A program made the translations under genes and the position numbers. A model generated the notes under the pieces. That model did not search any database, was not told the origin of the DNA, and worked only from the letters and a program-made list of their open reading frames with translations. DNA of 23,282 nt from the IMG/VR virus record IMGVR_UViG_3300009497_000046, positions 1 to 23,282 of that record; one strand, given 5' to 3'. This document shows positions 6,476 through 10,640 of the stretch, in pieces (within the stretch, counting starts at the first letter, position 1; each line of letters begins with the position of its first letter). The DNA is from a virus.

Positions 6476-8212
6476 ATGTACGCAAATCAATTAATCAACG
6501 AGTCCGAGGTTCAAAAGACCTGGGGACCTATCATTGAGGAAGCTACTGGTATCACTGAAAAGTCTAAGTTATCTTGGATGTCTAAGTACTGCCATTATCA
6601 CAACCTTAATGAAAGTGTATATAATACTGTACACTTAAATCCAAATATGAATGTACCAGGTATGGATGCGGTAACTTTACCAGGCAACCCTACTACAATG
6701 AATGCATTCTCTGGACAAACTGCTGGATCTGGTGACAGACCTTTTTCTTTGCTTCCACTTGCAATGCAAGTTGCTGCTCAGACTGTAGGTTTAGACTTAG
6801 TACCTGTAGTACCAATGCAAGGCCCAATGGGAATTCTTACTTACCTAGACTTTGTCTATGGTGGTGGTTTAACTAACCAAGCAGGTGGTGTAGATGGAAA
6901 TTCTGCTCCATTATTAATTAAAGTACCTGTAACATTAGGTTCTGGTATTGCTGCTTTAGCAGTAAACGATGTAAACTATGTTGGTACTGGTACTAATGGT
7001 TCTTATGAACTTACTTTCGTAGGTGCATCAAGAATTGACGGATATCCAATCTTCCGTGTAAGAGGTAAATCTACTGACGCAGTAGAAGGTACTGATCCTT
7101 ACAGACAAGGTGAAGAAGGTTACGAACCAATTTATACTGCTATCGTAGGTGGTGGTGCTCCAACAGATTTATATTCTAATGATACATTAGCTGCATCTAT
7201 TGGTACTTTTGGTGGAAGCCCTGAATATGTAAAAGCTTTAGAAGACCATATTACTGGTTTCTCAGGTAACGCATTTGAGGCTAACAACCCTGCTACCGGT
7301 GCACCTGCATTTGGTTCAGAAGATATCAATGGTGTAGATCCATACCAAAGAGGTGTTGGAGAATCAACTCCAGATAACCTTTTAGGTCTTTCATTGTTCA
7401 ATAAATCAGTTGCTGCTAAAACTTATCAAGTTGCTGCCGCTGTAACAAGAGAACAAGTTCAGGATTTAAAACAATTCGGAATCGACGCAGTTGCTCAAGT
7501 AGAAGCTGTATTGGTAAATGAGTTAACTCAATCTATCAACAAATACATCTTGGATAGAATCTTCAGAAATGGAGCTACTAACGCAAATAATGTATTTAGT
7601 GTGGACGCATTAAACTTATCTGCTTCGTTTGTTACTGCTGCTCCTGGTGTTACTGCAATCTCTTTAGGTGCTGGTAATTCTAGTAACGCAAACATCTCGT
7701 TAAACACTGCTGATACTGTAGTTGGTTCAGGTGGTGAAACACAAGGATCATTACAACGTAGGTTGTATACTAAAGTTCTTGCTGCTTCTAACTTGATCGC
7801 AACGAGAGGAAGAAGAGGACCTGCAACGTTTGCAGTATGTTCTGGGGAAATTGCTACGGCACTACAGGATATCGCAGGTTTCGTACCTTACCCACTATCA
7901 AATACAATCAACCAAGCTGGTGGATCTTTATATCCAATCGGTTCTTTGGCTGGTGTAACTATTTATGTTGATCCAAACATGGCTTGGACTGACTATAGAG
8001 TTGCTGTAGGTAGAAAAGGTGATGGTAATTCTCCTGGTTTAGTATTCATGCCTTACTTAATGGCTGAATCTGTTGAAACAATCGCAGAAGGAACTATGGC
8101 TCCTAAAATCGCGGTTAAATCTAGATTCGCTTTAGTAGATGCTGGATTCCACCCAGAAACTATGTACTACACATTAGGGTTTAACTTTGGTACTGGTGTA
8201 TCAATTATCTAA
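6476..8212 (+). CDS. 23: Major capsid protein (gp23-like)
   Basis: This 578-residue protein (T4 gp23 is 521) follows the protease-scaffold gene and is followed by a strong terminator. The N-terminus (VQKTWGPIIEEATGI) parallels the start of T4 gp23. The next part has the T4-type passage PLAMQVAAQTVGLDLVPVVP, then GPMGILTYLDFVYGG, as expected for the HK97-fold N-arm. A removable N-terminal delta domain is likely: candidate protease sites are IEE|A at 22|23, ITE|K at 29|30 and LNE|S at 46|47, the last just before the conserved body. It favours C-ending codons (AAC, TTC, ATC) more than its neighbours, which suits very high expression. Folding in T4 needs gp31 with GroEL, and a GroES-like gene lies at 17752. 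Confidence 0.93.
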   Translation: MYANQLINESEVQKTWGPIIEEATGITEKSKLSWMSKYCHYHNLNESVYNTVHLNPNMNVPGMDAVTLPGNPTTMNAFSGQTAGSGDRPFSLLPLAMQVAAQTVGLDLVPVVPMQGPMGILTYLDFVYGGGLTNQAGGVDGNSAPLLIKVPVTLGSGIAALAVNDVNYVGTGTNGSYELTFVGASRIDGYPIFRVRGKSTDAVEGTDPYRQGEEGYEPIYTAIVGGGAPTDLYSNDTLAASIGTFGGSPEYVKALEDHITGFSGNAFEANNPATGAPAFGSEDINGVDPYQRGVGESTPDNLLGLSLFNKSVAAKTYQVAAAVTREQVQDLKQFGIDAVAQVEAVLVNELTQSINKYILDRIFRNGATNANNVFSVDALNLSASFVTAAPGVTAISLGAGNSSNANISLNTADTVVGSGGETQGSLQRRLYTKVLAASNLIATRGRRGPATFAVCSGEIATALQDIAGFVPYPLSNTINQAGGSLYPIGSLAGVTIYVDPNMAWTDYRVAVGRKGDGNSPGLVFMPYLMAESVETIAEGTMAPKIAVKSRFALVDAGFHPETMYYTLGFNFGTGVSII

Positions 8213-8306: not shown

Positions 8307-9281
8307 ATGAAAAGAGTATTATCATATAATGAATTCGTTAATGAATCTAAAAATATTAAGGAAGGTATTACAGATATCAAAGGGATTATGAGTAATCCTA
8401 TTAAATATAAAAAGATTAAGAATAATGCTAAAGTTTATCAAAAGACTAAAGTACAACAAGCATTAAATAACTTAGATTACGAAAAGAAGAAAGCTGCTAG
8501 TAAAGGTGACGGTAATTCAAACGTTCTTAAAGTTGCTAACGCTACAAAAAATGCTGCACTTAAAAATCAGTCAACTGCAATAGCGGCAAGAATGAACGAT
8601 CTTGCTACAACAGATCCTCTTAAGAAGGTAGTTACTCTTGCAACAAGTAAAGCTAATTTAGCAGCAGCAGAAACGGCACTTAAAGCTGCTGATGCTGAAG
8701 AATCAAAAGCACTTAAGATTAGAATTAAAAGATTAGCAGGACAAGCGGCCGATGCACAAAAAGCACTTAAAGATTATGAATCTGATTCAAAAAAGGATAC
8801 TGCAGATAATGAAACACCGTCTGCTGAAGATAATCAAAAGGCTGCCACTGCAGAGAAAGCTAAATTAGATAAAGAAAAGGCTGAAAGGGAAAAGGAAGCA
8901 GCTAAAGCAAACAAAAAAGCAGATACAAAAGATGAACCAAAAGTAGATGATAAAGCCGAAGCTAAGATTGCTCAACTAGAAAATAGTATTAAGTCACAAG
9001 ATAAAATACAAGCTGATGCAACTAAGAATATAGAAAAATTAAAGGGTGAATTAAAAATAGCACAAGATAATAAAAATACAGGTAAATCATCACAAGCTGA
9101 AGTGGATGCTATCTCAGCTAAAATACAACAAGAAACTGAAGATAAGAAGGCTGCTAAAGCTGAAGAAGATAAACTTAAAAAACAATTAAAACCAATAGCA
9201 GATAAACAATATGGAGAATCTCATACTCCTTTAGAAGAATCTGTTGCTGATAAGTTTAGAAGATTATCAGGAAAACTGTAA
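8307..9281 (+). CDS. Putative internal head / core protein with capsid-targeting leader
   Basis: I place the start at ATG 8307 (324 residues) rather than at 8265, because the longer frame would begin inside the terminator tail and run through the promoter element. The N-terminus MKRVLSYNEFVNE|S closely resembles the T4 capsid-targeting sequence of internal proteins (MKTYQEFIAE|A), which directs them into the prohead and is cut by gp21. The body is highly charged and Lys/Ala/Glu/Asp-rich, with long predicted helices and coiled coils (about residues 90-300), and contains IKE|G near the start and LEE|S near the end as other candidate cuts. This suits a prohead core or DNA-associated internal protein. 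It follows the capsid gene after its own promoter. The function is inferred from the leader, composition and position; no enzyme motif is visible. Confidence 0.8.
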   Translation: MKRVLSYNEFVNESKNIKEGITDIKGIMSNPIKYKKIKNNAKVYQKTKVQQALNNLDYEKKKAASKGDGNSNVLKVANATKNAALKNQSTAIAARMNDLATTDPLKKVVTLATSKANLAAAETALKAADAEESKALKIRIKRLAGQAADAQKALKDYESDSKKDTADNETPSAEDNQKAATAEKAKLDKEKAEREKEAAKANKKADTKDEPKVDDKAEAKIAQLENSIKSQDKIQADATKNIEKLKGELKIAQDNKNTGKSSQAEVDAISAKIQQETEDKKAAKAEEDKLKKQLKPIADKQYGESHTPLEESVADKFRRLSGKL

Positions 9282-9294
9282 AAAACTATTAACT

Positions 9295-9360
9295 ATGAAA
9301 TGTAATTGTAAAACCTGTGGTTGCGGTAAATCATGTGATTGTACCTGTTGTAACTGCTAA
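9295..9360 (+). CDS. 21-residue Cys-rich, metallothionein-like peptide
   Basis: A 21-codon ORF starts 13 bases after the internal-protein stop and ends 11 bases before the next ATG. Nine of 21 residues are Cys, at positions 3, 5, 8, 10, 14, 16, 18, 19 and 21. They form C-x-C pairs, C-x-x-C, a C-C pair and a terminal Cys, with only Lys, Asn, Gly, Asp, Ser and Thr between and no hydrophobic residue after Met1. That is the composition of a soft-metal (Zn, Cd, Cu) thiolate ligand and is very unlikely by chance in such AT-rich DNA. The leader is A-rich, like other starts here. I know no exact homologue; metal binding is inferred. Confidence 0.65.
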   Translation: MKCNCKTCGCGKSCDCTCCNC

Positions 9361-9371
9361 AATAAATCATT

Positions 9372-9863
9372 ATGTATAAAGTTCGTAAAATAAACTTTGG
9401 TTGGTATAAAAGGAGGCATGGTATTCTATTAGAAAATCTGCCTCCTTTAAAGCAAAAACTTTTATTGGAACATAATCATATGAAATGGTTAGATTCTGAT
9501 ATACAAGCCTTTGAGATTATATTTAAAGTTGAGGATATGAATGAGCATGAAAAGAATCCTAATCGTATACTTTGGAATCCTTTTAGAGAAACGTTTACAA
9601 ACATTAAAGAATTAGAAAAAGACTCGGATCTCGTTGACTGGAATTGTGGAATATGTAAAGCTGGAATTAAATCAAGAATGGATTCTAGGAAGGTTGAAAA
9701 TTTTGTTTGTAGTAAATGCGTGGAGTCTCATAACTCACGGAACAGCAGAGTTGTCCAAAGAATAATAGATTCCTCTGTTAAATTTATGAAGCACTGTAAA
9801 TCCTTACTAAAAGGTGAACAGAGGGAGTTTATGACTTACATAAGAAGATCATCAAAAGCGTAA
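9372..9863 (+). CDS. Unknown zinc-ribbon protein
   Basis: This 163-residue basic protein has one CxxC-17-CxxC pair set (C92-GI-C95 and C113-SK-C116), the layout of a zinc ribbon. It has an aromatic/basic N-terminus (KINFGWYKRRHG) and a helical, basic C-terminus. I do not recognise the family; nucleic-acid binding or a small late regulator is possible but not shown. A 10-bp inverted repeat lies within codons 13-26. Its 3' end overlaps the end of the convergent minus-strand gene by 12 bases. It probably shares a transcript with the internal-protein and Cys-rich peptide genes. Confidence 0.75.
   Translation: MYKVRKINFGWYKRRHGILLENLPPLKQKLLLEHNHMKWLDSDIQAFEIIFKVEDMNEHEKNPNRILWNPFRETFTNIKELEKDSDLVDWNCGICKAGIKSRMDSRKVENFVCSKCVESHNSRNSRVVQRIIDSSVKFMKHCKSLLKGEQREFMTYIRRSSKA
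9409..9448 (+). repeat. 10-bp perfect inverted repeat inside zinc-ribbon gene
   Basis: Arms AAAGGAGGCA (9409-9418) and TGCCTCCTTT (9439-9448) are exact reverse complements separated by 20 bases. The left arm contains a perfect Shine-Dalgarno-like GGAGG, so the hairpin would mask it. Unusually GC-rich for this genome. Confidence 0.6.
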
Positions 9864-10640
9864 AGCTTCTTCTATAGTTATTTTTTTAAATGCATTTAAA
9901 TTACTAGATGGGCATGCATTTAAAATTTCTATTCCACTTCCATTAAGATCACGTTTAAGCAAATCAAACGCAGGTATAAATTGATCTTTATAAATATTAA
10001 CACCTGTAGTATTTACTGGATAGCCATCGTGGAAGTGACTTTCCTTTCCTACATTACCCATATCATATCCTAATAAGATAATTCTTTTAGCACCTAAATG
10101 AATTGCTAAATTAATTGCAGCATAACCACTATTTCCACCGTGTGCTATTTCATCTTTTTGTTTTGACAATCCATTCTTACTTCCTCTTTTTAAAAGTTTA
10201 ATACTTTCGTTATGATCTTTATTAGGTGTAATAGTATACTTCAAACCACTATAAGACATTATTTCTTTTCTAAGCCATCTGAATACTCTAGAATCTGTCC
10301 AATATAAAGCTGTTGGGTTATTATAATATTTTATAGCTTTATTAATAGCTATAGTTTTTTTATTAGATAATAAATTCCACTTAAATCCTTTTAGTGAAGG
10401 GCCTCCACCAATAATGTAAACAGTTTCCCCAGCCCACAATGGTGTAATAGTATGATATTTTAAATCTTTCTTTAGTGGTGTCTTTAGTCTAACTGGATTA
10501 GGATTTACTTTAGTAGGTACTTTATGGTGAGAATTAGTGTTTATAATTTTACCTCTCTTTACATTAGTCTTAATGTTCTTAGAAGATTCAGCTGGTACGG
10601 ATATATTTACCACCTTTCTAATTCGTCGGCCCTTTCTCAT
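9852..10640 (-). CDS. Rossmann-fold DUF115/MptE- or GT42 sialyltransferase-like protein
   Basis: This is the only minus-strand gene: 262 residues. A basic N-terminal extension (1-60) precedes YIIGGGPSLKGF (75-86), a nucleotide-binding turn seen in DUF115/MptE-like proteins and GT42 sialyltransferases. It continues with TIAINKAI, TALYWTD (110-116), and GNSGYAAINLAIHLGAKRIILLGYDM (written here in two parts: residues 169-182 and 183-194), typical of the same superfamily. The C-terminal ACPSSNLNAFKKI resembles the C-P-x-S ending of GT42 enzymes. It may modify a host surface glycan or a virion sugar, or be a moron gene. No TATATAAA element precedes it, so it may be expressed at a different time from its neighbours. 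Fold call is fair; substrate is unknown. Confidence 0.85.
   Translation of the reverse strand: MRKGRRIRKVVNISVPAESSKNIKTNVKRGKIINTNSHHKVPTKVNPNPVRLKTPLKKDLKYHTITPLWAGETVYIIGGGPSLKGFKWNLLSNKKTIAINKAIKYYNNPTALYWTDSRVFRWLRKEIMSYSGLKYTITPNKDHNESIKLLKRGSKNGLSKQKDEIAHGGNSGYAAINLAIHLGAKRIILLGYDMGNVGKESHFHDGYPVNTTGVNIYKDQFIPAFDLLKRDLNGSGIEILNACPSSNLNAFKKITIEEALRF

Follow-up and report, generated by a model that had tools for sequence, protein, structure and literature searches.

The locus raises two questions: whether an open reading frame (ORF) of only 21 codons, nine of them for cysteine, is a gene, and what its product would do for a phage. The window, that is, the whole stretch of DNA analysed here, is a 23.3-kb virus record from IMG/VR. 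Translation of the ORF at 9295-9360 gave MKCNCKTCGCGKSCDCTCCNC (21 aa, 43% Cys), which contains no His and carries Cys at positions 3, 5, 8, 10, 14, 16, 18, 19 and 21, exactly as the sequence-only reading had listed them. The gene-like spacing that had been described on both sides was also found, with 13 nt separating the ORF from the stop codon of the upstream ORF (8307-9281) and 11 nt from the next start (9372). The features around the ORF are as follows:

6476 to 8212, + strand: major capsid protein gene (PHROG 138/28442), an unbiased anchor for finding relatives
8307 to 9281, + strand: Ala/Lys-rich ORF after the capsid gene and upstream of the peptide (cluster c2), without family match
9282 to 9294, + strand: start region, A-rich, without Shine-Dalgarno (SD) sequence; A at -3, -12 and -13, T at -6
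9295 to 9360, + strand: nine-Cys peptide gene, putatively metallothionein-like; ATG at 9295, TAA at 9358-9360, 21 aa
9372 to 9863, + strand: 163-aa ORF downstream of the peptide with two CxxC pairs, zinc-ribbon-like by eye and by a sub-threshold Pfam match

The label 'head internal protein', previously attached to the upstream ORF, found no family match behind it. The description of the downstream neighbour as a zinc-ribbon protein held in part, since the two CxxC pairs and the sub-threshold Pfam match speak for it but no significant match was obtained. At 9852-10640, on the minus strand, a glycosyltransferase-like gene (PHROG 4603, alpha-2,3-sialyltransferase) opposes the otherwise plus-strand structural/replication cluster. 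The nearest relatives of the window capsid come from the Prevotella Lak phages, from an uncultured 462-kb phage and from phages of Tenacibaculum, Sphingomonas (PAU) and Chryseobacterium, and these relatives point to a Bacteroidota host. Based on the same relatives and on IMG sample numbers, the carriers of the peptide are presumably mostly marine. When the window was shuffled 300 times with its dinucleotides preserved, the maximum was six Cys in any ORF of 15-30 aa, and an ORF with at least seven Cys at 30% appeared in 0 of the 300 shuffles.

Relatives of the locus were collected with anchors that are neutral and independent of the peptide, namely the genes for the capsid protein and for the 163-aa product downstream. 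The same short ORF was recovered in related phages, at the same place and in the same frame, through either gene alone. With the downstream gene as anchor, 80 loci including the window were testable, of which 35 carried an intact nine-Cys peptide, one carried eight Cys plus a His and 44 had no peptide. A FAD-oxidoreductase anchor, which belongs to another phage group, gave 70 loci, with 14 intact peptides, none with six to eight Cys and 56 without the peptide. Both anchors combined thus yielded 49 nine-Cys copies, one with eight Cys plus a His and not a single decayed copy. These results show that the presence of the peptide at neighbour-found loci is all-or-none, and the frame disruption that would have spoken against the gene was never seen among them. 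In the two neighbour-found sets, pN/pS was 0.014 and 0.0 at Cys codons, as against 0.85 and 0.52 at non-Cys codons. Synonymous divergence was high while the Cys codons were kept, with pS at Cys codons of 0.79-0.92 and frequent exchange of TGT and TGC. The combination of low pN/pS and high pS at these codons indicates selection for the Cys residue and not for the DNA or the RNA. The sole Cys change in the neighbour-found sets converts Cys16 to His (TGY to CAC, two base changes) in the peptide MKCDCKECNCGTTCEHTCCNC of contig L619, and the same change was seen in a second contig. His at this position is another metal ligand, so the replacement may be read as an indirect sign of metal binding. With an ORF at the same place, synonymous divergence with the Cys kept and an intact frame, the core of the sequence-only reading, a real gene of metal-thiolate design, was borne out.

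A pattern scan of IMG/VR phage contigs recovered at least about 120 distinct cores with identical nine-Cys spacing. Because the plain nine-TGY pattern also matches poly-Cys low-complexity DNA, such matches were removed by requiring exactly nine Cys and a stop codon just after them. Scans with half of the pattern, which did not demand the Cys of the other half, still found peptides that keep those Cys, with few exceptions. Together with the neighbour-anchored set, the half-pattern set avoids ascertainment by the Cys pattern, both sets being finite. F, W and Y are absent from the tallied cores and His is nearly so; these cores prefer Gly11 and Ser13 and share a fixed 19-residue Cys frame, within peptides of 20-22 aa. 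Besides the Cys16-to-His form and a longer relative (L684, described below), the exceptions were a 20-aa version with a shorter loop (L418), an eight-Cys version with Tyr at Cys18 (L749) and a truncated version with seven Cys (L672), and the latter two show that nine Cys are not absolute. The record IMGVR_UViG_3300030102_006951 (L149) carries, on the minus strand upstream of 854, an extended version of 36 aa and 13 Cys, MRNRQNCNCENCKCQKACNCMKCNCSKSCDCACCDC, in which an additional CxCxxCxC module lies N-terminal to the 21-aa unit. This extension resembles the way in which known metallothioneins accrete modules. A longer, related-looking peptide of 29 aa with nine Cys and one His, MCNNEHCNCENCTCGTSCKCTEETPCGCE, was noticed in a 6.4-kb contig (L684). 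Whole-record pattern scans found no copy in nine phage records (PTm1, pT24, PAU, MA9V-1, immuto 3-5A, Mel-JY01, Lak-A1 and two uncultured megaphages). With the peptide as query, tblastn gave zero matches in annotated phage records, a result that does not count as evidence of absence because the low-complexity filter probably masks the query. Taken together, these data indicate that the 21-aa ORF is a genuine gene, widespread in viruses of presumably marine Bacteroidota, that has been overlooked because its length falls under the usual gene-calling limits.

The region before the start codon was then compared across the family. In Flavobacterium johnsoniae, adenine at -3, -6, -12 and -13 promotes initiation (PMC6847099). 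Among 100 distinct copies of the peptide gene, A was found at these positions in 87%, 76%, 88% and 83%, respectively, compared with 31-39% at the same positions of other ATGs in the window, and an SD-like start region was present in one copy only. Three of these four adenines are present in the window copy. These start regions provide strong indirect evidence that the peptide would be translated efficiently in Bacteroidota.

The peptide gene was found in at least four neighbourhoods, unrelated to one another:

Context A (window): capsid, Lys/Ala-rich ORF, peptide, CxxC protein
Context B: peptide, FAD-dependent oxidoreductase, ORF, thymidylate kinase
Context C: ORF, short uncalled ORF, peptide, DnaG primase (66% identical to its counterpart in Flavobacterium phage immuto)
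Context D: structural genes, with tail sheath nearby

In some contigs the peptide is the final gene before a convergent gene, and the capsid and terminase of several carriers are only distantly related to those of the window. The 21 matched contigs have one copy each, and contigs that are empty at the usual place have none elsewhere. In the tree of the downstream neighbour, presence of the peptide switches at least eight times, and well supported branches force at least four of these switches. Where the gene is absent, the site is precisely empty: the stop codon of the upstream ORF runs straight into the stretch that otherwise comes after the peptide (L630). Varied neighbours, a single copy per contig, presence toggling at one site and precise empty sites together show that the peptide is encoded by a self-contained accessory (cargo) gene and is not the partner of its neighbour. 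The suggestion of a metal store for the zinc-ribbon neighbour consequently had to be abandoned, since this neighbour occurs without the peptide at 44 of the 80 loci and elsewhere the peptide adjoins other genes. Neither a metal transporter nor a metal regulator was seen next to the peptide gene.

Three further observations concern these neighbourhoods. In context C loci (L327, L357, L374, L369 and others), the uncalled ORF (FELVWHRD...ETYHR.IKGTG.LKVKIY) lies at about 260 bases upstream of the peptide, with GTG as a possible start codon at some loci; it is cupin-like by eye, without a Pfam match, and the overlap of its end with the ATG of the peptide suggests translational coupling. In one phage group (cluster c15), a holin-like protein (Pfam GTA_holin_3TM; L337, 7540-7935, minus strand) is encoded immediately upstream of the peptide. 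In L620, L625, L626 and L642, an additional ORF of some 130-335 aa lies between the peptide and the CxxC neighbour, which are there separated by about 1 kb.

The gene is not restricted to phages, as shown by copies on flavobacterial chromosomes. A metagenome-assembled genome of Cryomorphaceae (L315) encodes MDCNCKSCDCTKSCDCTCCNC amid ordinary chromosomal genes, and a further genome from its GTDB family (L723) encodes MDCNCSQCSCNKTCNCNCCDC at the same place, between a 119/122-aa ORF and a pirin-like gene, with the next gene roughly 300-500 nt away. Both copies have diverged in sequence and kept all nine Cys. A third genome (L722) has its copy at a contig end, immediately behind a tRNA-like sequence. 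Carriers amount to three of the 301 genomes of this GTDB family, and among 398 genomes searched from the host order the known carrier was the sole match, which makes the gene rare in cells. We conclude that the gene is exchanged between, or common to, phages and hosts. With patchy presence, varied neighbourhoods and cellular homologues, it has the attributes of a phage auxiliary (accessory) gene.

No family in Pfam, NCBIfam or PHROGs recognises the peptide. It gave no significant profile match to the named metallothionein families of Pfam and NCBIfam, in searches where the HMMER bias correction penalises Cys-rich peptides, and the low-complexity and bias filters of BLAST and HMMER weaken every negative database result for it. 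The only echoes in profile searches came from plant metallothioneins and were insignificant (wheat Ec, E 8.1; Metallothio_2, best E 0.54, 6 of 40 members). The likeness to wheat Ec-1 and other plant metallothioneins (PDB 2kak, Pfam Metallothio_2) consists of CxCG..CxC..CxC segments, but the plant proteins have 50-80 residues. The metallothionein label thus relies on design and not on homology. Under the functional definition of the metallothionein superfamily, the peptide is small, very rich in Cys arranged in CxC, CxxC and CC motifs, and conserved at its Cys while the intervening polar residues drift, with few or no aromatics.

The closest comparisons in design come from eukaryotes. The mammalian beta-domain (Zn3Cys9) has about 30 residues and is part of a two-domain protein. 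Like the phage peptide it has nine Cys, CxC and CxxC spacings and no aromatics, although homology between the two sequences was undetectable here. Its nine Cys hold three divalent metals (PMC10243857). A Zn3Cys9 cluster is likewise built from nine Cys in the MSL2 CXC domain and in pre-SET domains (PMC3447885), but these are larger structural domains within eukaryotic nuclear proteins. The copper metallothioneins of Neurospora crassa and Agaricus bisporus, with 26 aa, were called the shortest reported at the time (PMC4755600). They are similarly very short, single-domain and Cys-rich, and differ in having seven Cys instead of nine, in being Cu-specific and eukaryotic, and in being longer than the phage peptide (20-22 aa). 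The bacterial SmtA/BmtA proteins and PflQ2MT are small, thiolate-rich Zn binders, as the phage peptide is predicted to be, but exceed it in length, use His ligands and adopt a GATA-like zinc-finger fold (PMC10612145). The window peptide falls outside the SmtA/BmtA group, having 21 aa against about 50-60 aa, no His and no profile match. We found no description of a phage or viral metallothionein in the open-access literature.

Altogether, 43% Cys, CxC and CC motifs, the lack of F, W and Y in the tallied cores, drifting polar residues and His as a tolerated replacement define a metal-thiolate cluster design. We consider it probable that the peptide is the product of a metallothionein-like accessory gene of tailed phages of marine Bacteroidota and a few host relatives, and that it buffers metal. 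From these sequence patterns we infer metal binding, translation, an M3Cys9 stoichiometry and the buffering role. The peptide would be translated in the infected cell as a single-domain metallothionein-like protein, and in the reducing cytoplasm its nine thiolates would enclose a small metal cluster. M3Cys9 would be the natural stoichiometry, with three Zn or Cd as in the mammalian nine-Cys beta-domain, or else a Cu(I) cluster would form. Made in quantity during infection, the peptide could buffer free metal (Zn, or Cd/Cu) while the phage builds its Zn-dependent proteins and the host proteome is dismantled, with detoxification or metal supply as other possible benefits.

An anti-host effector would have the identical metal-thiolate design, with the apo-peptide stripping zinc or copper from host enzymes (e.g. 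Zn-dependent transcription or defence proteins) instead of protecting the cell, and accessory cargo in many phage neighbourhoods would suit it. However, flavobacterial homologues at a conserved chromosomal place argue for a tolerated, housekeeping-like activity and no antitoxin-like partner was seen, which leaves this explanation unlikely. The fixed 19-residue Cys frame could also serve other thiol chemistry, and a metal-free peptide whose Cys form a reducing or cross-linking reserve, for instance in the virion or in lysis, is an equally improbable alternative. Its high thiol density, the position of the window group among head genes and the holin-like gene in cluster c15 favour such a role, but CxC/CC spacing fixed over at least about 120 sequences and the Cys-to-His swap better fit metal ligands, and neighbours that vary widely and include replication genes show no consistent link to virion or lysis. 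We also considered, and rejected, a leader peptide acting as an attenuator or cysteine-supply sensor for the downstream gene. A short ORF rich in codons of a single family and lying just a few bases ahead of the following gene has that appearance, but a leader needs Cys codons and not fixed spacing, a Gly11/Ser13 preference or a Cys-to-His swap. Furthermore, downstream genes differ among groups, the peptide sometimes comes last before a convergent gene and host copies lie roughly 300-500 nt from the next gene, so that this explanation is very improbable. Finally, a functionless chance ORF, compatible with a length of 21 aa below gene-calling limits, is refuted by the shuffles, the pN/pS contrast and more than 100 conserved copies, and its likelihood is negligible.

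Beyond the window, we give about even chances to the broader proposal that metallothionein-like peptides of 20-22 residues form an unrecognised family of single-cluster metallothioneins, the smallest gene-encoded kind, present in many phages of marine Bacteroidota and in some hosts, with which phages would regulate the metal pool of infected cells, a strategy undescribed for phages. If this reading is right, the peptide is also a minimal M3Cys9-type example from nature that is easily synthesised and tested. At the level of annotation, gene callers miss a whole, strongly selected phage gene family because its members have fewer than 30 codons. If the proposal is true, ocean phages carry the smallest genetically encoded metallothioneins, and control of metal would join the contest between phage and host.
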